Shown here one piece after another: positions 5,820-17,119 of a stretch of DNA of 58,955 nt. Within the stretch, counting starts at the first letter, position 1; every line of letters begins with the position of its first letter. Where the stretch lies: positions 1 to 58,955 of the forward strand of contig NZ_QURB01000004.1 of NCBI RefSeq assembly GCF_003402975.1, given 5' to 3'. Origin of the DNA: Brumimicrobium aurantiacum. Lineage in GTDB: Bacteria > Bacteroidota > Bacteroidia > Flavobacteriales_D > Crocinitomicaceae. The notes beneath the pieces were generated by a model, which was not told where the DNA came from, ran no database searches, and saw only the letters and a program-made list of their open reading frames with translations. The position numbers and the translations under genes were made by a program.

Positions 5820-6548
5820 TTATTCGAATACCTTTTTTATGATTAACTCCTTATCAAAGGGAGCGTTAAAGTTCACTAGTTCATTTTTTCGGGTATCAAT
5901 GGCGATGATTCTGTTGCAATATCCAAAACATAATTCTAAATCATGAGATGAAATAAAGACCAGTTGATTATTGACTTCTACGATATGCTGAAGTAGTTTT
6001 AGTACTTTTCTTCGGTTGTTATAATCCAAAAATGCGGTTGGTTCATCGAGAATCATAATTTCAGATTCTTGAGCAAGTGCTTTTCCAATCATTGCAATTT
6101 GGCGCTCTCCATCACTTAAATTTAAGGTATTTTTATACTTATATTTACTTAAATTTAATTGATCTAAAACCTTTTCTACCACACTGAGATCTTCTGAGCT
6201 CAACTTATTCAACAGATTCGTGTATGGGGCACGTCCCATTGCGATTAAATCAAAAACTGTTAAATGCTGAATTCCTTCAAACTTGGAAGGAACAAAACTA
6301 AGGTGCTTAGCTTTTTCTGTTCTAGATAATGCCGACCAGTTCTTTTCTTCAAAACAAATTTCACCTTTCAAGGGTGTTAACTGACCTAAAATTGTATTGA
6401 ACAAAGTTGTTTTCCCTGAACCATTTGGTCCAATAACAGCTACAAAATCGCCTGCTTCAAACTTTAAATTGGCTGCATCAAAAAGCTTAACAGCTTCTGT
6501 TTTCTTTGTTTTTGCAAATCCTATATTTAAGTCTTTAAAATTTAGCAT
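5820..6548 (-). CDS. ABC transporter ATP-binding protein, BtuD/FecE type
   Basis: A 242-residue ATPase. Walker A GPNGSGKTT, a Q-loop region, signature LSDGERQ, Walker B IMILDEPTAFLD and the switch histidine in ISSHDLE are all present. ATG at 6548 is chosen because it overlaps the permease stop as TGATG, a classic coupled junction; a longer GTG start would overlap the permease by 25 bases. It energises import through the BtuC-like permease. Together with the binding protein at 7583 it forms a cobalamin/siderophore/heme-class importer. The riboswitch locus next door makes cobalamin the best guess. Confidence 0.85.
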   Translation of the reverse strand: MLNFKDLNIGFAKTKKTEAVKLFDAANLKFEAGDFVAVIGPNGSGKTTLFNTILGQLTPLKGEICFEEKNWSALSRTEKAKHLSFVPSKFEGIQHLTVFDLIAMGRAPYTNLLNKLSSEDLSVVEKVLDQLNLSKYKYKNTLNLSDGERQIAMIGKALAQESEIMILDEPTAFLDYNNRRKVLKLLQHIVEVNNQLVFISSHDLELCFGYCNRIIAIDTRKNELVNFNAPFDKELIIKKVFE

Positions 6549-7546
6549 CAAAATTTTTTCATTATAATCCACATCACCACAGGAGCTCCAATTAGCGCTG
6601 TCAAGGCATTTAAAGGTAAATTAATTAAAGGCATTAACAATTGCATACTTACATCACAAACCACAATAAGAAGTGCTCCACCCAATAAACTTCCAACTAA
6701 AAGATGGTAATGATTTGTGGTTTTATAAAGCATTTTAATCATATTCGGAACAACTAAACCTACAAAAGCAATTGGACCACAAAAAGCAGTTACAACTCCT
6801 GTTAATATTGCAGTAACTAGAATAATCAAAAAGCGAATAGATTTTACATTCACCCCTAATAATGATGCATTTTTATCGCCAAGCAACATTAGATTTAAGG
6901 GTTTAACCAATAATAAAGAGAAAACAGAACCGATTGCTACGATCAATGTTAACATGCCTAACTGGTCAAATTCCACGCCTTGCAATGAACCAAAACTCCA
7001 CAGCATAAATGTTTTTAAATTGTTAGGATCTGCATAAGCTTGAATAACACTAATTATTGCTCCTGTAAAACTTCCAAACATTATACCTATCAATAATAAT
7101 GAAACTTTATTCTTGGTAAACAATGAACTAAACAAAATAAAAACTCCAGCTCCAAACGCGCCTACCATAGCTGCGAGAACGATTCCTAAATCACTTCCAA
7201 AAAAATAGAATGATGACATTGTAGAAAGCGCCACCATTAAAGAAGAACCCGAATTAATCCCCAACACATAAGGTCCTGCCAGTGGATTTTGAAACAGCGT
7301 TTGCATCAATAAGCCAGAAATTGAAAGTGCTGCGCCAGCCAAAATAGCTGTAACCACTCTTGGAAATCGAAAGATTCGAACTGTTAATTGTGCCGTTGAA
7401 TTTTCATTGTAATTAAACAAACCATTAAGTACATCTGTAAAACTCAATGCAAAACTTCCTAACATAAGATCAAGCACAGCAATTCCAACCAATAATATGG
7501 TGAGAAAAATACTTAATTGCCAAAACTTTGTTCTTGATCTATTCAT
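6548..7546 (-). CDS. FecCD/BtuC family ABC transporter permease
   Basis: A permease of about 332 residues with roughly ten hydrophobic segments. Family hallmarks are RFPRVVTAILAGAALSISG, LMQTLFQNPLAGPYVLGINSG and a late GPIAFVGLVVPN followed by the LPLNALTALIGAPVVMWII end. ATG at 7546 is preferred; the frame extends to a TTG at 7570. It lies between the substrate-binding lipoprotein gene and the ATPase gene in one operon. In the family this subunit forms the pore for cobalamin or iron-siderophore uptake across the inner membrane. Confidence 0.88.
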   Translation of the reverse strand: MNRSRTKFWQLSIFLTILLVGIAVLDLMLGSFALSFTDVLNGLFNYNENSTAQLTVRIFRFPRVVTAILAGAALSISGLLMQTLFQNPLAGPYVLGINSGSSLMVALSTMSSFYFFGSDLGIVLAAMVGAFGAGVFILFSSLFTKNKVSLLLIGIMFGSFTGAIISVIQAYADPNNLKTFMLWSFGSLQGVEFDQLGMLTLIVAIGSVFSLLLVKPLNLMLLGDKNASLLGVNVKSIRFLIILVTAILTGVVTAFCGPIAFVGLVVPNMIKMLYKTTNHYHLLVGSLLGGALLIVVCDVSMQLLMPLINLPLNALTALIGAPVVMWIIMKKF

Positions 7547-7582
7547 CCTATTGATACTATCCAATTGCAAAAATACAAATGC

Positions 7583-8722
7583 TTAATCAGTAATTCTTTC
7601 TGATTGATTACGCTTTAACAATTCATAATATTTCAATTCATGATTATCGAAGAGTTGAGGGTGAAATATTTTTGCAAGATCTTCTAAAACAATATGAGGT
7701 TCGATTGGAGAATTCTCCCAAAAACAATTATTATTGTTGAAGTAGGTATATAGTTTTCCTTTTTCAAATGCGTTTAACATTTCAAATTTGGCACTTTGTT
7801 TAAGTAAATCTCTCTTATTAGAAACACCAGCATTTAACCAATATTGAGTTTCCATATTAGTAGTTAAGAGTTCTTCTAAACTTTTGCTTAGACTTCCAGT
7901 TCCTTCAGTGTCAGCATATACATAGTTAATATTCGCATCTTCAAACAATTGTGCCATATAGCTTTCTCCTGCAGGAACATTAAAAACATCACCAAAATAA
8001 GTTCCAGCAAACATTGATTCAGAAGATGATTCAAGTTTTAGTTTATCTTTTAGTGTAAAATATTTAGATTTTACCTCTTCATAAATTGTTTTGGCTTCTA
8101 TTTCTTTATTAAACAAAGCTCCGTATACTTTAATCCATTCAGCTCTTCCCAAAGGATGTGTTTCTTTCCATTCAAAAACTTTAAATGTTTTCAAGCCTGC
8201 TTGTTCCAGTTTATTCAAAATTGGTGACTTTTCATTAAAGCCAGAATACAAAATGACATCAGGATTCACCTTTAAAAAAGATTCTGTGTCCGCCATTCCT
8301 AAATGGCCAACCTCAGCAACATTTGATTTACTAACCGGATTACATAAATATTTATAATCAGAAACGCCAGCAATGGAATTATCCAAATCAAGGGCTCTCA
8401 TCATTCCAACATGCGTAGTTGACAATGCAATTACCTTTTCTATCTCCAAGGGTAAAAAATTTCCCTTTACAGAATTGGATTGTGCCACACGATAAGATTC
8501 TCTTTGTGATAAATCATCTGGATTTTGTACAACAATTTCGATATACCCTTGATGATGAATAATTTGGAATGCTTCTGCAAAATCATTTTGAAGTGTATCA
8601 CTTTTTACTCTTGCATTGGATTGAGTTACCTTAGAAGAATCAGTTGTCTCACATGAACTTTGGGTAAAAACCAAAAGAAACATCAACAATATGGTACCAT
8701 TTAATTTCAATCTACGATTCAT
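7583..8722 (-). CDS. Substrate-binding lipoprotein of ABC importer (BtuF-like)
   Basis: A 379-residue lipoprotein: hydrophobic leader then FTQSSC, with the lipidated cysteine at about residue 24. The periplasmic-binding fold of the helical-backbone (Peripla_BP_2) class is shown by KVIALSTTHVGMMRALDL, IAGVSD, EVGHLGMADTESFLKVNPDV and PDVILYSG. It would hand substrate to the permease and ATPase encoded downstream. Its gene is divergent from the cobalamin-riboswitch operon about 1.3 kb away, which suggests a BtuF role, but heme or siderophore transport cannot be excluded from sequence. No riboswitch precedes this operon. Confidence 0.82.
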   Translation of the reverse strand: MNRRLKLNGTILLMFLLVFTQSSCETTDSSKVTQSNARVKSDTLQNDFAEAFQIIHHQGYIEIVVQNPDDLSQRESYRVAQSNSVKGNFLPLEIEKVIALSTTHVGMMRALDLDNSIAGVSDYKYLCNPVSKSNVAEVGHLGMADTESFLKVNPDVILYSGFNEKSPILNKLEQAGLKTFKVFEWKETHPLGRAEWIKVYGALFNKEIEAKTIYEEVKSKYFTLKDKLKLESSSESMFAGTYFGDVFNVPAGESYMAQLFEDANINYVYADTEGTGSLSKSLEELLTTNMETQYWLNAGVSNKRDLLKQSAKFEMLNAFEKGKLYTYFNNNNCFWENSPIEPHIVLEDLAKIFHPQLFDNHELKYYELLKRNQSERITD

Positions 8723-9093: not shown

Positions 9094-9540
9094 ATGAAAA
9101 CAATAAAATTACTTTCTTTAGGCCTTTTCCTTTCAGGAGCGATGTTATTCTCAAGTTGTAAGAAGGAAGGATGTACAAATCCAGACGCCGACAATTATGA
9201 TGCATCAGCGAATATTAGTGACAAATCATGTTTATATACAACTGATGTAATATTTTGGTTAAAGGAAGACCAGTCTAATTCATTGGTAAATGATGATATC
9301 AAAAAAGTAGACTTCTATTTAAATGAAGAATTTCTTGGAAATGCGTCAACGGAGAGTTTTTGGGATGAAGCACCAACATGTGACTCAACCAACGTTATTC
9401 GTTTTAGCAAAGAATTACAAAAATCAAATTCAGAACCATTTTACTATTATGTAAAAGACGATGAAGGTTTCACTCTATTCCAAGGACTAACTGAATTGGA
9501 TACAGATTCATGCCGCGTTATTTTACTAGAAGGTTACTAG
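9094..9540 (+). CDS. Hypothetical lipoprotein
   Basis: A 148-residue protein with a lipoprotein signal (GLFLSGAMLFSSC, cysteine near residue 22). It is followed by a cysteine-rich motif CTNPDADNYDASANISDKSC, a sequence type seen repeatedly in Bacteroidota surface proteins. The remainder is acidic and beta-rich with no domain that I recognise. It is monocistronic: a strong terminator follows at 9563. It lies between the importer operon and the cobalamin operon but is outside riboswitch control. Confidence 0.7.
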   Translation: MKTIKLLSLGLFLSGAMLFSSCKKEGCTNPDADNYDASANISDKSCLYTTDVIFWLKEDQSNSLVNDDIKKVDFYLNEEFLGNASTESFWDEAPTCDSTNVIRFSKELQKSNSEPFYYYVKDDEGFTLFQGLTELDTDSCRVILLEGY

Positions 9541-9595: not shown

Positions 9596-9653
9596 TTTTT
9601 ATGGCTAAAAGTTAAATAGCATAAGTTGACCAATGTTAAGTTTAAAATCTAAT

Positions 9654-9683
9654 TTGTTTAATTGAAAAATCGCTATACCTTTG
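9654..9683 (+). promoter_or_regulatory. Promoter of the cobalamin operon
   Basis: TTG (9654-9656), exactly 19 bases, TACCTTTG (9676-9683): a perfect Bacteroidota primary-sigma promoter. The predicted start of transcription, about 6-7 bases downstream, coincides with the first bases of the riboswitch P1 stem at 9689. Confidence 0.85.
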
Positions 9684-9688
9684 TACTA

Positions 9689-9858
9689 CATTTTAGATTA
9701 TATGTGAGAATCATATAGTAAGGAATCTTGTGAAAATCAAGAACTGTATCTGCAGCTGTAAGCTCTTAAAGATCTTTTCTAAAAACCACTGACACGTCGC
9801 CTGACGGTTGGGAAGGTAGAAAAGAAAAAAGAGTAAGTCAGAAGACTTATCTAAAATG
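9689..9858 (+). ncRNA. Cobalamin riboswitch
   Basis: The closing P1 stem is CATTTTAGAT (9689-9698) pairing with ATCTAAAATG (9849-9858). Inside are conserved pieces of the class: CTGCAGCTGTAAG, the core CCACTG, CGCCTGACGG, TTGGGAAGG and the B12-box-like AGTAAGTCAGAAGAC just before P1 closes. The aptamer binds adenosylcobalamin or a related form and lowers expression when B12 is plentiful. The expression platform is 9859-10005. A weak ACAC/GTGT hairpin near 9954-9980 precedes a U-rich stretch, but I cannot decide between transcriptional and translational control. Confidence 0.93.
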
Positions 9859-10005
9859 CGTTTTAAGGAGACTTCAGATTAAAGTCGGACTTATCAAAGT
9901 ACTGCGCATATTTTATATTCTCAGTATTGATATTTCTATTCTTTAGGGTTCAACACTCGATTTGGTGTCTTCATTTTTATTCATAATTCATTAAAAATTA
10001 AAAAA

Positions 10006-10971
10006 ATGAAGAAAATTTACTTTTTAGCAAGCGCGCTCCTTGCTGTAACAACTCTAAAAGCGCAAACAACAGTCGATTTCGAAGACTTAACTTTAGACCC
10101 AGAGTCTTATTACAACGGTAGTGATGAAGCAGGTGGATTTACTTCTGGTGGAGTAACTTTTGAAAATGAGTACAATACTGCATGGGGATCATGGAATGGT
10201 TTTTCATATTCAAACATTACTGACAATACAACAACAGGTTACGGTAATCAATATAGCGCTATTCCAGGAAGTGGAGCTGACAATTCTGAGATTTATGCCG
10301 TTTACCATAGTGGAGATACAATGCATTTCCCAGATTCTCACGCAAGAATATCTAGCATAGACATCACCAACACAACTTACGCATATTATTCAATGAAAGA
10401 TGGTGACGCTTTTGCAAAAGAATTTGGATCTCCAAATGACGCGAGTGGTGCAGATGATGGTACAAACGGAGAAGACTTCTTCAACATTGTAATTTATAAT
10501 CATGACGCTACAGGAGCAAAAACAGATTCAATCACTTTCTATTTAGCTGATTTCCGTTTCTCTGACGACAATGATGATTACATTATTGATACATGGACAC
10601 CAGTAGACCTTACTGCGTTTACAGACATCAACTATTTAACATTCTCATTCAATTCTTCTGACGTTGGAGAATTTGGTTTAAATACTCCAACATATTTTGC
10701 ACTTGATAACATTAAGTATGAAAACACAACAGGATTAACGAAAAATGAAATTGCTCAATTTTCATTATATCCTAATCCAGCAACATCTACTTTGAATATT
10801 TCTGGTGATGCTGGTGAATATAAAATCTTTAATACAAACGGATCAATTGTAAAATCATTTACTCATAATGGATTGAGTACAATTGACATTTCGAGCTTAA
10901 ACTCTGGAATCTACATTGTAAAAGTTTCAACTGGAAACAGTTTTGGAACACAAAAACTAATTATTAGATAA
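10006..10971 (+). CDS. DUF4465 surface protein with T9SS sorting domain (cobalamin operon)
   Basis: A 321-residue protein with a signal peptide (residues 1-19, ending LKAQ). The body matches the DUF4465 pattern: ESYYNGSDEAGGFTSGGVTF, GSWNGFSYSN, GNQYSAIPGSGADNSEIYAV, ending with a TYFALDNI strand. A type A T9SS C-terminal sorting domain starts near residue 247 (FSLYPNPATSTLNISG, SGIYIVKV), so the protein is probably exported through the outer membrane and surface-attached or released. It is the first gene after the cobalamin riboswitch and 8 bases upstream of the BtuB-like receptor. A role in capturing cobalamin or a B12-carrier complex is inferred from this context. Confidence 0.85.
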   Translation: MKKIYFLASALLAVTTLKAQTTVDFEDLTLDPESYYNGSDEAGGFTSGGVTFENEYNTAWGSWNGFSYSNITDNTTTGYGNQYSAIPGSGADNSEIYAVYHSGDTMHFPDSHARISSIDITNTTYAYYSMKDGDAFAKEFGSPNDASGADDGTNGEDFFNIVIYNHDATGAKTDSITFYLADFRFSDDNDDYIIDTWTPVDLTAFTDINYLTFSFNSSDVGEFGLNTPTYFALDNIKYENTTGLTKNEIAQFSLYPNPATSTLNISGDAGEYKIFNTNGSIVKSFTHNGLSTIDISSLNSGIYIVKVSTGNSFGTQKLIIR

Positions 10972-10979
10972 TCAGGTTT

Positions 10980-12968
10980 ATGACCTCTACTACTAGAAAT
11001 AGCAAGGTACTAAGTAACATTACTAAATGTATCTTGCTATTTTTTATACCCCATTTTTTATTCGCTCAAGAAGAAGATACAACACATTTCCAAGAAGTGA
11101 CCATTAAGGGGAATCATCAAAAAATAGAACAGCACACCACTTTAACTAAAAATGAAATTCAACATATTTCTTCAAATGATTTGGGAGGAATACTTCAATA
11201 CATCACCGGTTTAACCATCAAAAGTTATGGTGGAATTGGAGGAATGAAAACACTTTCTCACCGAGGACTTGGAGGTGAACATTCACAACTTATTATCGAC
11301 GGATTACCAATTAATAATCCTCAAAATGGTCAAACCAATTTGTCCAACATTCAATTAAACAATGTTGAAGAAGTAGGTTTAAACCAACAAAACACAGAAC
11401 AGCTTATTCCGGTTTCTGGATTAATCAAAGGTAGTTCAGTTCAATTAAAAACATTTGATCAACAATTTTCCAATTCAAAAATCGCAATACGAAGTAATTT
11501 AACCTTAGGAAGTTTTGGTCAAAAAGAAGCCTACCTAGGATTTAAAAAATCAAACAAAAAAACATTTATAAGTGCTACAGGTGGTTATAGGACTTATGAT
11601 GGTGAATATCCATATCAACTACCATTTGGAGACGAATCAATAAAATATAGACGAAATAACGCTTTAGAAAATTATCACTTTTCAGTTGGTGGAGGGCTTA
11701 GATGGAAAAAGAATGTTACCATTCAGAAGTTGAAGTTTTCGGCAAAAAGAAATGTTATTCAACAAGAACTACCTGGAGCGGTAATCATTTACAATGATTT
11801 AGCATCTGAAACATTAGAAACCGAAGTTACTAGTCTTGGCCTTAATTACACTTTATTGAATCGAAATTTAATGGTTAAAGCTTTTGCTACATATAACAAT
11901 CATTATATACATTACAATGATCCAACCTATCTCAACAGTGATGGTTTTTTGGATAATAAGTATACCACTAATTCAATTATTTCGGGTTTTCATACACGCT
12001 ATAAATGGAATAACTTCGACTTCAACTTGGGTCACGACATTAATTTTGACGTTTTAGAAAGTTCAAGAAACATCGGACAACCTGAAAGAATGACCAATAC
12101 TTCAATGTTAAAATTGAAATACAACACCACTTTTTTCAATGTTGCTGCAAGTGCTTTTTACCAAAGTTTCATTGATGCAAATGACATACAAACCCACCGA
12201 AATAGTTATTATAAATTACACCCTCAACTTTCGGTATTTACATCCGATTCACTTTTTAAAAATCTACAACTTTCTATTTGGTATAAACCATCTTCTCGCG
12301 CACCGACGTTTAATGAATTGTATTACTCTCAAATAGGGAACAAAGATTTATCTCCTGAAGAATCATCACAAATTAATTTTGGGGCTAGATATATCAAGCA
12401 AATTAAAAAGACACTCTTTCAAATTCAGGGGAATGTTTTTAAAAACAAGGTTGACAACAAAATCATTGCATTACCAACACAGAATTTATTCGTTTGGTCA
12501 ATTCAAAATATCGGAAGGGTTGATATTTTAGGAGGAGATTTACACATAACAAGCCGAACAGCGATTCGCAAAAATTGGAAGCTTAACTTTCAGGCAGGTG
12601 CAAGTTTTCAAAATGCAATTGATGTAAGTGATGAGCACTCTCCTACCTACCGCGATCAAATTGCATACACTCCTAAAATTACTGGTAATGCTATGGCTAG
12701 TGTTCATTACAAAAAGGCTGGATTATATTTTACATCACTTTACATTGGAGAACGCTATAGTTTAAATGAAAATTCAAACGGAAATAGATTAGATCCCTAT
12801 TTGATTTTTGATCTTTCAGCGAGTTATAATTTCAAATTAAATAAGAATCAAAACATCAAACTTCAAGCTGGCTTCAAAAATGTTGGTGACATCTCATATA
12901 ACTTTATTAAATATTATGTGATGCCAGGAAGAAATTACTTTTTAAAACTTAGTTATGAATTTAATTAA
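10980..12968 (+). CDS. btuB: TonB-dependent receptor, BtuB-type (cobalamin)
   Basis: A 662-residue outer-membrane receptor. It has a signal peptide to about residue 29, then a plug domain (LGGILQYITGLTIKSYGGIG, LSHRGLGGEHSQLIIDGLPI, NNPQNGQTNLSNI) and a 22-strand-type barrel ending in the aromatic-rich NYFLKLSYEFN. There is no N-terminal carboxypeptidase-like domain, as in BtuB. Location behind a cobalamin riboswitch and next to a BtuG-like lipoprotein gene makes B12 the likely ligand. The 3' end overlaps the next gene by 14 bases, so translation is coupled. Confidence 0.87.
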   Translation: MTSTTRNSKVLSNITKCILLFFIPHFLFAQEEDTTHFQEVTIKGNHQKIEQHTTLTKNEIQHISSNDLGGILQYITGLTIKSYGGIGGMKTLSHRGLGGEHSQLIIDGLPINNPQNGQTNLSNIQLNNVEEVGLNQQNTEQLIPVSGLIKGSSVQLKTFDQQFSNSKIAIRSNLTLGSFGQKEAYLGFKKSNKKTFISATGGYRTYDGEYPYQLPFGDESIKYRRNNALENYHFSVGGGLRWKKNVTIQKLKFSAKRNVIQQELPGAVIIYNDLASETLETEVTSLGLNYTLLNRNLMVKAFATYNNHYIHYNDPTYLNSDGFLDNKYTTNSIISGFHTRYKWNNFDFNLGHDINFDVLESSRNIGQPERMTNTSMLKLKYNTTFFNVAASAFYQSFIDANDIQTHRNSYYKLHPQLSVFTSDSLFKNLQLSIWYKPSSRAPTFNELYYSQIGNKDLSPEESSQINFGARYIKQIKKTLFQIQGNVFKNKVDNKIIALPTQNLFVWSIQNIGRVDILGGDLHITSRTAIRKNWKLNFQAGASFQNAIDVSDEHSPTYRDQIAYTPKITGNAMASVHYKKAGLYFTSLYIGERYSLNENSNGNRLDPYLIFDLSASYNFKLNKNQNIKLQAGFKNVGDISYNFIKYYVMPGRNYFLKLSYEFN

Positions 12969-14013
12969 ATACACTTTAATCCTACTTCTTTTTGCTACTT
13001 CTTGTAAGAAAGAAGAAAAAGACGATCAAGTCATTACTGGTAAAGATGGTTTTAAGAACGGTTTGTTGGTGTTAAACGAAGGATTATTCCAGCACAACAA
13101 CAGTAGCTTAACATGGGTAGATTTAGAAAACGGAGAAGTGACAGAGAATCTTTTCTTAAACATAAACGATCGATTATTGGGCGATACAGGAAATGATATG
13201 GTGAGTTATGGAGGGAAAATATATATCACTGTTACAGGATCAAGTACCCTAGAAATTTTGGATAAAAAAAGTTTAAAAAGTATTGGGCAAATTCAATTTA
13301 ACTACAACAATCAATCACAAGAACCCCGTAAGATTGCTTATCATGAAAATGCCATTTATGTCACGAGTTTTGATGGATATGTTACTGCAATAGACACAAC
13401 CTCTTTAAACATAACCAAACGTATTAAAGTAGGAAGAAATCCTGAAGGAATTTGTGTGTCAAATCAATCTTTATATGTTGCAAACTCAGGAGGATTAGAT
13501 TTTCAAAATCCAGATACAACAGTTTTTCAAATAGATTTAAATACTTTAAATGTTGTAGATACCTTCACTGTGGGTAAAAATCCAGGAGCTATAATCGCAG
13601 ATGAATTTGATAACGTTTATGTAGTAAAAAGAGGAGATTACGCTTCTGATCCTGCGGAATTAATAAGAATTAATACACAGAGTAAAACAATAACAAATCT
13701 TGGAATTACAGCAACTTCATTATCAATGAGGAATAATCAATTGTATTTAAGTTATTTTGATCATGGAAGTGGTTCTTCGGCGGTTTCTATTTATGATTGT
13801 GCATCACAAACAATCATTACCAACAACTTTATCAATAATCAAGACATAACAACACTTTACGGTGTTACTCCATATCTTGAAGATGAGCTAATTTGTCAAG
13901 ACGCAATGGATTTCACCAACACTGGATATTTAAGATTTTTCAATTTAACAGGTCAATTAACTAATAGTATAAAAGTAGGGTTAAACCCAAATACAACAAT
14001 TCATTATGAATAA
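12955..14013 (+). CDS. btuG: BtuG-like beta-propeller lipoprotein (YncE/DUF5074 type)
   Basis: A 352-residue lipoprotein: short hydrophobic leader ending LLLFATSC, then KKEEKDD. The rest is a repeat-rich beta-propeller resembling YncE/DUF5074 proteins: KNGLLVLNEGLFQHNNSSLT, repeated V-G-NPEGI / VGKNPGAI units, and a final VGLNPNTTIHYE. In gut Bacteroides, BtuG proteins of this architecture sit on the cell surface over BtuB and bind B12 extremely tightly. Here too the gene overlaps btuB and lies under a cobalamin riboswitch, so the same capping role is inferred. It overlaps the following gene by 8 bases. Confidence 0.82.
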   Translation: MNLIKYTLILLLFATSCKKEEKDDQVITGKDGFKNGLLVLNEGLFQHNNSSLTWVDLENGEVTENLFLNINDRLLGDTGNDMVSYGGKIYITVTGSSTLEILDKKSLKSIGQIQFNYNNQSQEPRKIAYHENAIYVTSFDGYVTAIDTTSLNITKRIKVGRNPEGICVSNQSLYVANSGGLDFQNPDTTVFQIDLNTLNVVDTFTVGKNPGAIIADEFDNVYVVKRGDYASDPAELIRINTQSKTITNLGITATSLSMRNNQLYLSYFDHGSGSSAVSIYDCASQTIITNNFINNQDITTLYGVTPYLEDELICQDAMDFTNTGYLRFFNLTGQLTNSIKVGLNPNTTIHYE

Positions 14014-14992
14014 GTACATCACAATTATTTTCGTAGCATTCTTAGGTTTTTCAAAAGCTCAAACTTATGCGCCAGCTGCAGGAGAAACTGGAACAACAGC
14101 TATTGCCCACGATTCAACAATTATAAAAAGTTGGGCTACTCACGTAGAAATAGAGAGAGGATTCGTAAACATAAGTGATACTTCAGTTTATTATCAAGGT
14201 TCAAACAAAGCTACTTTTGGCGCTCCAGTTGATGCAATAGGACCAGCGTCAAATACATCAACGGATGCTGTTTCATTAGGAGATAGTGGTATTGCAATAG
14301 TTACATTCTTAACTCCTATCATGAATGGAACAGGACCCGACTTCGCAGTTTTTGAAAATGGAGTTACCAATACTTTTTTAGAATTGGCTCATGTAGAGGT
14401 CAGTTCGGATGGAATCAACTATGTTCGTTTCCCTTCACACTCTCTTACACAAACCAATAACGAAATTGGAGGATTTGGAATGGTTCAGCCTACAGACATT
14501 CACAATTTAGCAGGTAAATACAAGGTAGGCTTTGGAACTCCATTTGATTTAGAAGAGTTGTCTGACAGTACAGGAATAGATATCAATAGCATAACTCATA
14601 TTAAAATTATCGATGTAGTAGGTTCGTTAGATGAGCATGGAACTCATGATGCACAAGGGAATTTAATTAATGATCCTTTTCCAACGCCTTTTGGGACTGG
14701 AGGTTTTGATTTGAACGCTGTTGGAGTAATCCATGAGCAAGTTTTAAATCTTAACTCTGAAAACTATACTTACTCAATTTATCCAAATCCTAGTAGAGGA
14801 ATTATAAATATTCAGTTTGACGCTCCACAGATTAAGGAAATTAGAATTACAAATAATATTGGACAAAATGTTCAAGTAATTAACGTCAATAATTCAAAGC
14901 AATCGATTCAAACTAATCTACCAAAAGGGATTTACTTTATTCAATTTATAGGGAAGAATAGTATTCATAGTGAAAAAATAGTCGTAAAATAA
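14006..14992 (+). CDS. T9SS-exported cell-surface protein of cobalamin operon
   Basis: A 328-residue protein with signal peptide (MNKYITIIFVAFLGFSKAQ). The central domain contains ASNTSTDAVSLGDSGIAIV, PDFAVFENGV, LAHVEVSSDGINYVRFPSHS, LAGKYKVGFGTPFDLEEL and a FGTGGFDLNAVGVIH end, a beta-sandwich-like family often called simply cell surface protein. A T9SS type A sorting domain follows (YSIYPNPSRGIINIQF, KGIYFIQFIG). It is the last gene of the riboswitch operon, coupled to the BtuG-like gene. Binding of B12 or of a B12-binding protein is inferred from operon membership only. Confidence 0.8.
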   Translation: MNKYITIIFVAFLGFSKAQTYAPAAGETGTTAIAHDSTIIKSWATHVEIERGFVNISDTSVYYQGSNKATFGAPVDAIGPASNTSTDAVSLGDSGIAIVTFLTPIMNGTGPDFAVFENGVTNTFLELAHVEVSSDGINYVRFPSHSLTQTNNEIGGFGMVQPTDIHNLAGKYKVGFGTPFDLEELSDSTGIDINSITHIKIIDVVGSLDEHGTHDAQGNLINDPFPTPFGTGGFDLNAVGVIHEQVLNLNSENYTYSIYPNPSRGIINIQFDAPQIKEIRITNNIGQNVQVINVNNSKQSIQTNLPKGIYFIQFIGKNSIHSEKIVVK

Positions 14993-15076: not shown

Positions 15077-17119
15077 ATGGCTAAAAACTATTCACTTATA
15101 ATCTTTCTTTTATTTTCTGTATCATTTGTATTTTCACAAGTAGAAGATGAAGCATGTTTGCCACCTGGTAAAAAGGTGAAAAAACTTATTGAAAAAGCTA
15201 AAAAAGAAGCTCCACCAGAGGCCTCTAAATTATTTAGAGAAGCCATTTCTGAAGAGCCAGACAATGCTACAGCATACTATGAATTTGCGATGTATGCCTA
15301 TAATAATGGATTAGATTTATACAATTCAGATCCAGATCCTAAAAGAGGTGATAGTTATATGAAAGTCGCCGAAGGTCTCTTTAATAAAACGATAGATCGA
15401 TGTTCTAATTTTCATGCAAACTGCTATTATTATCTTGGTGTAATCAATTATACTTTTCAAAACGAAAAAGAAGCTGTAAAATACTTCCAAAAATTTAATG
15501 ATTTTGATCATGATGATATGGATCGTTTTTCTGATGATCGTGAGAAACGTTTAAATGACGTAGCAGAAGTTCTTTCTAAATTCAAAGAAGAGCAATCATT
15601 TTATGACAATGCAGTTCCTTTCTCACCAAGTAAAGTTGAAAATGTGAGTACTTTACGAGATGAATATTTCCCTATGATTTCTCCAGACAACGAGTTAATT
15701 TTCTATACACGAAGAGTTGATAGAACAGCGAAAGGAGACATTATTTCTACAATAAATGAAGAGTTTACATGGTCCAAAAGAAAAAACAAAAACACTCCAT
15801 TTGACGGAGGGAATCCACTAGCATCACCATTTAACAATGGAGTATTTGACAGTTATGGAGCTGCAACACTTTCTGTTGATAATAAGGAAATGATTATCTG
15901 TGCATGTAAAGATGAAAATGTAAGAGGTCAAAACTATAGAAATTGTGATTTGTACAGAACTTATTATGAAAGAACGGGAGAAGGAGGAAATGATTATGTA
16001 TGGACTGAATTAGAAAACTTAGGTGATGGTATCAACACAAATGATGGTTGGGAAGGTCAACCAACAATGTCAGCTGATGGAAATACGCTATATTTTTCAG
16101 CGATTCGTCCTACCACACAAAATGATGATATATTTTATTCCAAAAGACTATCTGATGGTTCTTGGGGACCATCACAACCTTTTGCAGAAGTAAACACGGC
16201 AGGAAAAGATAAAAGTCCGTTTTTCCATCAAGATAGTGAAACTTTTTATTTTGTTTCAAGTGTAAGTGAGCAAAGAAAAGGATTAGGTGGAACAGACATT
16301 TTCTATATGAGAAAGCAAGAAGATGGTTCATGGTCAAAACCAAAAAACATTGGTTATCCAATCAATTCAGAGGAAGATGAAATTGGATTATTTGTATCGA
16401 TTGATGGTGAAGATGCTTACTTTTCTTCTAGACAGGGTGGAATCTGGGATATTTATTCTTTTGAATTATATGAAGAGGCACGTCCAAAAGCAGTAACGAT
16501 TGTAAAAGGGAACTTAAATACGGAAGATAATTCTCCGGTCGAAGATGTTCAAGTTGAAATTGCTTATTCAAATTCTGACAAAGTTGAAAAAGTAAGGGTA
16601 AATGGTAATGACGGTAAATATGCAGCAGTTGTAAAAGTCGAAGACAATGAAGATGTGATGGTTAACGTCAAGAAAAAAGGACATGCTTTTGACTCGCAAA
16701 TCATTACCAAGGAGGAGTTAGCAAAAGGTGAGACTATTGAATCGAAAGACATGATGGTTCGAGAAATCGAAGTGGGTGAACCTTATACTATTAATGACAT
16801 TTTATACAATACTGCTTCTGATGAACTATCAGAAAGAGCTAAATTTATTTTAAAGCAATTTGCTCGATTTTTAAAAGAAAACGAAGAGTATAACATACTT
16901 ATTCAAGGGCACACAGATAATGAAGGTATTGCTGAGAAAAACTTGAAACTTTCTGAGAAAAGGGCAAATGGTGTAAAAGACTTTCTGATTGAGAATGGAA
17001 TTGACAAACAAAGATTATCTGCAAAAGGATATGGTCAAACACAACCAAAAGTACCCAATACCAGTGAATCTAATAAACGAAAAAACAGAAGGACTGATTT
17101 CGTTATTCAGAAGAAATAA
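15077..17119 (+). CDS. PorE-like protein: TPR, WD40-like (PD40), CRD and OmpA domains
   Basis: A 680-residue secreted protein with signal peptide (to about residue 20, VFSQ). Residues 30-150 are TPR-like (EAPPEASKLFREAI, YYYLGVINYTFQNEKEAVKY). PD40 propeller repeats follow (FPMISPDNELIFYTRR, GQPTMSADGNTLYFSA, DIFYMRKQEDGSWSKPKNIG). A carboxypeptidase-regulatory-like domain covers about 472-560, and an OmpA-type peptidoglycan-binding domain ends the protein (IQGHTDNEGIAEKNLKLSEK, LSAKGYGQTQP). This four-domain order is that of PorE, a T9SS-associated periplasmic/outer-membrane anchor, but paralogues with other roles are common. Transcribed alone with a strong terminator. Confidence 0.8.
   Translation: MAKNYSLIIFLLFSVSFVFSQVEDEACLPPGKKVKKLIEKAKKEAPPEASKLFREAISEEPDNATAYYEFAMYAYNNGLDLYNSDPDPKRGDSYMKVAEGLFNKTIDRCSNFHANCYYYLGVINYTFQNEKEAVKYFQKFNDFDHDDMDRFSDDREKRLNDVAEVLSKFKEEQSFYDNAVPFSPSKVENVSTLRDEYFPMISPDNELIFYTRRVDRTAKGDIISTINEEFTWSKRKNKNTPFDGGNPLASPFNNGVFDSYGAATLSVDNKEMIICACKDENVRGQNYRNCDLYRTYYERTGEGGNDYVWTELENLGDGINTNDGWEGQPTMSADGNTLYFSAIRPTTQNDDIFYSKRLSDGSWGPSQPFAEVNTAGKDKSPFFHQDSETFYFVSSVSEQRKGLGGTDIFYMRKQEDGSWSKPKNIGYPINSEEDEIGLFVSIDGEDAYFSSRQGGIWDIYSFELYEEARPKAVTIVKGNLNTEDNSPVEDVQVEIAYSNSDKVEKVRVNGNDGKYAAVVKVEDNEDVMVNVKKKGHAFDSQIITKEELAKGETIESKDMMVREIEVGEPYTINDILYNTASDELSERAKFILKQFARFLKENEEYNILIQGHTDNEGIAEKNLKLSEKRANGVKDFLIENGIDKQRLSAKGYGQTQPKVPNTSESNKRKNRRTDFVIQKK

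Follow-up and report, generated by a model that had tools for sequence, protein, structure and literature searches.

Here we describe a four-gene operon of Brumimicrobium aurantiacum, located in a 58,955-nucleotide stretch of DNA (contig NZ_QURB01000004.1, positions 1 to 58,955 of the forward strand), which was analysed as a whole and is called the window below. In our reading, to which we assign a probability of about 0.7, it is a vitamin B12 (cobalamin) uptake operon of the BtuJ-BtuB-BtuG-BtuH kind with two products, BtuJ from the first gene and a divergent BtuH-like protein from the fourth, that are cargo of the type IX secretion system (T9SS). The B12 binding and the C-terminal export motifs of the DUF4465 family, to which the first protein belongs, are already known, and this half of the system is not new. 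The new part is gene 4, which is tied here to BtuH by profile comparison and a predicted fold; the T9SS-exported BtuH-like branch appears to be unreported in the open-licence literature, in the main texts of which no report of it was found. Statements on the known systems are drawn from three published studies (PMC12751083, PMC13398666 and PMC8941943).

Organization of the operon and genes 1 to 3

The operon was pointed out in an earlier note made from the sequence alone, and the layout described there is borne out. The cobalamin riboswitch is present, and its 10-base-pair P1, formed by CATTTTAGAT (9689-9698) pairing with ATCTAAAATG (9849-9858), is seen both in the sequence and in the predicted fold. 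The genes are packed as tightly as had been claimed, with an 8-base gap between genes 1 and 2 followed by overlaps of 14 and 8 bases, and no terminator-like site was found when one was sought in the operon leader. The features are as follows:

9653-9683, plus strand: Bacteroidota-type promoter match, TTTG-N19-TANNTTTG (one exact match)
9678-9868, plus strand: cobalamin riboswitch aptamer (RF00174, 83.5 bits against a gathering threshold of 31.5, expectation value E 3.9e-19)
10006-10971, plus strand: gene 1, BtuJ-type DUF4465 protein (signal peptide; DUF4465 at residues 59-236; T9SS type A sorting domain at 254-320)
10980-12968, plus strand: gene 2, BtuB TonB-dependent B12 receptor (best PDB match 8blw_A)
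12955-14013, plus strand: gene 3, BtuG (DUF5074) beta-propeller lipoprotein (8blw_B, PF16819)
14006-14992, plus strand: gene 4, predicted BtuH-like protein (signal peptide; BtuH-like domain at residues 21-250, positions 14066-14755; T9SS type A sorting domain at 258-327)

The BtuB-type receptor and the BtuG-like lipoprotein recognized in the earlier note are confirmed by sequence searches of the PDB. For gene 2 the best match (E 2e-78) is 8blw_A, the BtuB1 protein from Bacteroides thetaiotaomicron, and the protein also matches the NCBIfam equivalog TIGR01779 (E 8e-27, 94 bits), under its cut-off of 599.7. Gene 3 matches PF16819 (E 1.6e-17) and finds the BtuG half of BtuGH as its best PDB match (8blw_B, E 1.9e-58); by eye, its N-terminus presents a lipobox, FATSC, followed by charged residues. 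The two proteins thus match the two chains of one solved complex, 8blw, of BtuB1 with BtuG1 (renamed BtuGH).

Gene 1 is a member of DUF4465 (PF14717, E 7e-49, 166.9 bits against a cut-off of 25), and its sequence matches two DUF4465 structures determined with B12 (PMC13398666, PMC12751083), 9hmu at E 1.4e-21 and 9fct at E 2.8e-19. Aligned to 9hmu, 9qpm and 9fct, it retains the DE-loop motif TNTTY (residues 121-125) and the HI-loop motif NTPTYF (226-231), and both the HI-loop N-T-P-x-Y and the DE-loop tyrosine of the B12 site are found in it. DUF4465 is a demonstrated B12-binding family (PMC13398666, PMC12751083): binding has been demonstrated for eight relatives of gene 1, and the published binders include a protein of Fluviicola taffensis (PMC13398666).

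An exact match to TTTG-N19-TANNTTTG, which we take to be the Bacteroidota-type promoter consensus, is present, but the pattern is common by chance, with two matches in the window against 0.96 expected and 24 of 100 shuffles reaching two. It is also rare upstream of related riboswitches: the exact pattern was found 5' of 1 of 47 (4 of 940 random stretches) and a looser form 5' of 4 of 47 (10 of 940). The match is therefore weak evidence, credible by its position alone, 5 bases ahead of P1.

Relation of gene 4 to BtuH

When 247 genomes from the phylum of the window (the phylum sample) were searched with the domain alone, the gene-4 family was found in 28 of them, the own genome included, which leaves 27 loci when the own genome is set aside. 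A scan of 84,980 species genomes yielded at least 546 relatives of gene 4, the best 80 of which are referred to as close-relative loci; the query used to rank them included the T9SS tail, and as they were chosen for nearness to the window, shares among them describe these near relatives and not the family as a whole. Three gene-4 profiles with overlapping membership were used: A1, made of 28 relatives, A2, made of 50 closer relatives, and A3, a narrow profile of 80 members. Among the matches listed, the closest relative in a named genome is that of Brumimicrobium oceani (57% identity); several others originate from rumen samples.

The sole Pfam match of gene 4 is its C-terminal Por_Secre_tail (E 7e-10), and the 28 family members scanned have no Pfam domain of their own. 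Profile A1 matches 8blw_B at E 2.1e-6 over residues 394-497; it also matches BtuH2 (7biz), at E 0.025. The first of these matches lies in the BtuH half of BtuGH, since a relative of BtuH2 aligns to residues 381-662 of 8blw_B. For profile-profile comparison with hhalign, a BtuH set was drawn from Bacteroides-type loci with DUF4465, one of which has a product that matches 7biz at E 1e-206. The gene-4 family matched Bacteroides-type BtuH at E 1.3e-6 (probability 91) and a larger BtuH set at E 1.4e-5 (probability 80).

The AlphaFold model of the gene-4 domain has a mean predicted local distance difference test score (pLDDT) of 96.7 and a predicted template modelling score (pTM) of 0.93. When it was compared by Foldseek with 350,542 PDB chains, ranks 1-3 were taken by the BtuH-bearing chains 8blw_B, 7biz_A and 7biz_B (E 1.0-1.3e-3, prob 1.00), with weak carbohydrate-binding-module matches listed below them. 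The joint alignment of gene 4 with BtuH displays a common core around SLG..G.I..F......G.DF....N.F and a later FDL/IDI block. The published B12 contacts of BtuH2 are Gln333, Asn399, Phe401, His476, Tyr510, Trp511, Trp577 and Leu578, Asn399 being the phosphate contact (PMC8941943); to transfer this numbering to the 7biz chain we shifted it by 100, and all eight residues then agree. Asn399 aligns with Asn118 of gene 4, which is invariant in the three overlapping sets (28/28 in A1, 50/50 in A2 and 80/80 in A3), and a Gln occupies the position of Gln333 in some divergent members of the gene-4 family. BtuH1, BtuH2 and the BtuH half of BtuGH all bind B12 (PMC12751083, PMC8941943). From the profile, the predicted fold and the genome context detailed below, we class gene 4 as a remote BtuH relative that probably holds a B12 site.

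Genome context of gene-4 relatives

All neighbourhood counts were made with domain-only profiles, BtuB and BtuG being scored, in the phylum sample, on the gene-4 strand within 6 kb. The earlier note had named, as grounds for abandoning its reading, homologues lying mostly in loci with no cobalamin link, and the opposite was found: of the 27 loci of the phylum sample, 23 have BtuB or BtuG close to gene 4 and on its strand. None of the four operon families occurs in any of twenty control stretches of 20 kb, taken from 20 of the same 28 genomes, and gene 4 directly adjoins btuB or btuG in 20/27 loci. Two of the four loci devoid of BtuB and BtuG (L034 and L036; the other two are L037 and L038) have a DUF6580 gene and a riboswitch. 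In them, a DUF6580 membrane protein is encoded between the cobalamin riboswitch and the BtuH-like gene (L034:2319-2891; L036:10392-10961, minus strand), and these two proteins are candidates for B12 transporters of an unfamiliar type.

Among the 80 close-relative loci, BtuB or BtuG is present in 64 and DUF4465 in 35, and the four-gene order of the window recurs in 13. An initial count of DUF4465 in 80/80 was rejected, as the profile had included the T9SS tail. A riboswitch was detected by pattern in 47 of these loci, against 0/80 shuffles and 0/20 control stretches, and of the 33 loci negative by pattern a further 12 were found by Rfam to have one, bringing the total to 59/80, of which 47 rest on the pattern. 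The pattern overlooks weak switches: three Rfam matches of 34.9-37.3 bits (L002, L006 and L008) were missed by it. All 59 riboswitches are on the gene-4 strand and, by eye, upstream of gene 4. Altogether, 72 of the 80 loci have a riboswitch or BtuB/BtuG, and five of the other eight are contigs shorter than 9 kb.

In six of the 80 loci the gene-4 domain and DUF4465 are fused in one chain. These fusions (L069, L077, L092, L098, L100 and L101) comprise a BtuH-like domain, DUF4465 and a T9SS tail in 570-787 amino acids (aa); they are encoded 5' of BtuB, in five cases also of BtuG, in genomes labelled Bacteroidales, Lentimicrobium and Paludibacter. A fusion involving BtuH is also known from Bacteroides, where BtuGH consists of BtuG fused to BtuH (PMC12751083). 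Four further Bacteroidales proteins of 768-2236 aa, several of them from the rumen (L081, L088, L127 and L131), carry a T9SS tail, with the BtuH-like domain located towards the C-terminus, and their genes directly follow cobalamin riboswitches; the protein of L131 also includes fn3 domains.

Secretion, proposed mechanism and comparison with known systems

The T9SS sorting domains that the earlier note had seen in the DUF4465 protein and the final protein are confirmed by Por_Secre_tail matches (E 2e-15 and 7e-10). As type A tails, those of genes 1 and 4 score 57.1 and 39.4 bits with PF18962, against a cut-off of 27, and they also match TIGR04183; by eye, both signal peptides end in an A-Q junction with no lipobox. 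The own genome (99.81% complete) encodes the SprA translocon (2405 bits) and the PorU sortase (1218 bits). A T9SS tail was found in 19 of 28 gene-4 proteins of the phylum sample by Pfam (E up to 0.1), and in 20/27 by our own profile, whereas its presence in 79 of the 80 close-relative loci was rejected as evidence, because the query that ranked them contained the tail. We take IPR026444 to denote the T9SS tail and IPR013424 to denote PEP-CTERM. C-terminal extracellular targeting motifs are frequent in DUF4465, with IPR026444 in 229/824 (PMC12751083).

SprA is present in 28/28 gene-4 genomes against 190/247 overall (hypergeometric 4e-4, kinship ignored), an enrichment to which we give little weight, because kinship is uncorrected and 118 of the 122 genera carry SprA. 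In two genomes found with the BtuH query that are devoid of SprA (G230 and G238), the BtuH-type proteins start like lipoproteins, one of them being fused to BtuG. Four other genomes with classical BtuH carry SprA, and the T9SS therefore does not force a switch from lipidation to T9SS export. One locus in a genome with SprA contains three consecutive genes for lipoprotein-like products of BtuH type, with a DUF4465 gene after them (L158:5540-9365).

T9SS tails were also observed on BtuG-type propellers of about 430 aa (L064:6673-7959, L066, L079, L084 and L133). Such tailed propellers occur in 8/80 close-relative loci, of which L064 was checked with Pfam, and in L064, L066, L079 and L084 a tail-less BtuG lies just 5' of the tailed one; the genomes are labelled Winogradskyella, Ulvibacter, Aequorivita and Flavobacterium. 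Outside the phylum, Planctomycetota strain ZRK32 encodes a BtuH-like domain directly after a cobalamin riboswitch (L139:7493-8744), with a borderline PEP-CTERM match at the C-terminal end (16.2 bits against a cut-off of 16); the protein also weakly matches the lipoprotein family LIC_13355.

Divergent from the operon, three minus-strand genes just upstream encode a candidate BtuFCD-type importer, as judged from their Pfam matches:

7583-8722, minus strand: Peripla_BP_2 lipoprotein, candidate BtuF (PF01497, E 4e-21)
6548-7570, minus strand: FecCD/BtuC-type permease, candidate BtuC (PF01032, E 5e-78)
5820-6572, minus strand: ABC ATPase, candidate BtuD (PF00005, E 1.4e-28)

Two other neighbours are a small lipoprotein-like gene just 5' of the riboswitch (9094-9540, plus strand, 148 aa), for which neither Pfam nor NCBIfam gave a match, and, directly after the operon, an OmpA/PD40 protein (15077-17119, plus strand), the best NCBIfam matches of which, the CHU_0125 and PorE families, are far under the cut-offs. 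B12 matters to the host cell: its genome encodes three B12-binding domains, with MetH, methylmalonyl-CoA mutase and IcmF as best matches. A second cobalamin riboswitch (G000:C12:583352-583493, 35.4 bits against 31.5) precedes the genes for the small and large chains of ribonucleotide reductase, an arrangement common in bacteria with an additional, B12-dependent enzyme.

In the mechanism that we propose, low intracellular B12 would cause the riboswitch to permit expression of the operon. BtuB would serve as the TonB-dependent channel in the outer membrane and the BtuG lipoprotein as its high-affinity surface lid, the two forming a gated channel. BtuJ and the gene-4 protein would cross the outer membrane via the T9SS instead of being lipidated, capture B12 at or beyond the surface, raise its local supply and pass it to BtuG-BtuB, after which the neighbouring BtuFCD-type ABC importer would complete its entry. 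B12 binding by gene 4, the hand-over to BtuG-BtuB and B12-repressed expression are steps that we infer, as are what the importer carries and where the two exported proteins end up. The earlier note's proposal of extra, T9SS-exported B12-capture proteins holds in so far as both proteins are tied to B12 acquisition, gene 1 through the demonstrated binders in DUF4465 and gene 4 through its predicted relation to BtuH; capture by gene 4 is probable.

Several observations speak against the reading of the operon as a BtuJ-BtuB-BtuG-BtuH system with two T9SS cargo proteins. A PDB search with the single gene-4 sequence returned no BtuH chain, only one T9SS tail and one chance-level match, and a classical BtuH query recovers none of the 28 gene-4 genomes. 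Profile A2 reaches 8blw_B only at E 3.5e-4, with 7biz unlisted, and the narrow profile A3 matches BtuH with probabilities of only 29 and 42. The fold similarity is moderate (template modelling score (TM) 0.44-0.49 on the query, root-mean-square deviation 10-11 Å). The full-length model of gene 4 found unrelated chains only, with TM below 0.3 among the best 50 matches listed; these were two-domain glycosidase-like matches driven by the jelly-roll plus the Ig-like tail, and that model was replaced by the domain model. Only Asn399 of the eight BtuH2 contacts is clearly retained in the gene-4 protein of the window; Phe401 is replaced by Val120, and the remaining contacts found no clear counterpart in the joint alignment. 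As for the context, L037 and L038 (2/27 sample loci) show no B12 link, and a riboswitch was found in only 10/27 loci, eight by pattern and two (L034 and L036) by Rfam, which was applied to short flanks only. DUF4465 occurs in 0/27 sample loci and 9/247 sample genomes, and the pairing of two exported proteins is therefore not general. Both PDB matches of the candidate BtuF are iron-hydroxamate binders. Finally, BtuK2 and BtuL, encoded in B12 operons of B. thetaiotaomicron, showed no B12 binding (PMC12751083), so operon membership does not prove B12 binding.

The last point also favours an unlikely alternative, namely that gene 4 has the BtuH fold but is a non-binder like BtuK2 and BtuL, and that it serves BtuB-BtuG, or else the exported BtuJ, as a structural or docking partner. 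The retention of the Asn399 equivalent alone points the same way, and the direct adjacency to btuB or btuG in 20/27 loci suits a partner as well as a binder. Against it stands the B12 binding of BtuH1, BtuH2 and the BtuH half of BtuGH (PMC12751083, PMC8941943), and a binder accords better both with the BtuH-DUF4465 fusions and with the riboswitch-led copies that have neither BtuB nor BtuG in the retrieved stretch (L081, L088, L127 and L139). It is very improbable that the exported proteins serve a ligand other than B12, such as an iron chelate or a glycan, and sit in the operon for co-regulation only: the carbohydrate-binding-module matches that would suggest this are weak and ranked under the BtuH chains, and the iron-hydroxamate matches of the candidate BtuF are set against the riboswitch control, the BtuB-BtuG pair, the known ligand of DUF4465 and the genomic linkage.

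A refinement of the two-cargo reading, which we regard as possible but on balance doubtful, is that the two T9SS proteins enter the medium in soluble form, scavenge B12 there and return loaded to BtuB-BtuG in the manner of protein siderophores. It agrees with the type A tails (PF18962/TIGR04183) and the absence, by eye, of a lipobox from either protein, and type A cargo of Flavobacterium is often soluble. On the other hand, the genome contains the PorU sortase, which in Porphyromonas reportedly attaches type A cargo to the cell surface. Also in favour of release, the BtuJ of B. thetaiotaomicron acts on released vesicles, for which the authors draw a parallel with siderophores (PMC12751083); a T9SS-delivered BtuJ could therefore act alike without vesicles.

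If our reading is correct, a likely function is suggested for a family that has no Pfam domain of its own in the 28 members scanned and is found in 28/247 phylum genomes, and the BtuH fold, studied in gut species in the publications cited here, would extend to a divergent T9SS-exported branch across the phylum. B12 trapping outside the cell by secreted proteins, besides that by outer-membrane receptors and lipoproteins, becomes testable, and it bears on bacterial competition for the vitamin. As a tentative generalization, for which we would claim slightly less than even odds, T9SS-bearing Bacteroidota may run a secreted vitamin capture, with BtuJ and a new, deeply divergent BtuH branch as soluble or surface B12 traps, and the same cargo may have been re-wired in evolution to the sorting machine of each host: gut Bacteroides lipidate it, the present host would export it by the T9SS, and in the planctomycete locus L139 it has a PEP-CTERM-like end.

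As regards the known systems, gene 4 resembles the BtuH domain (7biz; BtuGH in 8blw; PMC8941943) in its profile core and predicted fold, and the two also have the invariant Asn and the operon setting in common. Gene 4 differs in being shorter (about 230 residues against about 270), in the absence of the preceding PKD/Ig domains, in its T9SS tail and in its divergence, which is too great for single-sequence search and leaves most contact residues not recognisably retained. Gene 1 is a member of the DUF4465/BtuJ family (PF14717, IPR027828; PMC13398666) with the conserved loop tyrosines kept, in which a T9SS tail, published for many members (PMC12751083), replaces lipidation. With T9SS type A cargo (TIGR04183/PF18962) genes 1 and 4 have in common the signal peptide and the C-terminal sorting domain, SprA and PorU being present in the genome; here the sorting signal is ordinary, and it is the cargo that is notable. 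The closest counterpart of the whole is cobamide operon 1 of B. thetaiotaomicron (BtuJ1, BtuGH, BtuB1, BtuH1, BtuK1/2; PMC12751083), which has the riboswitch and the BtuJ/BtuB/BtuG/BtuH-type set in common with the window. In that operon the accessory binders are predicted to be lipoproteins, and BtuG and BtuH form a single fusion protein (PMC12751083), whereas in the window, where no gene is assigned to BtuK, BtuJ and the BtuH-like protein are separate and predicted to be T9SS cargo.

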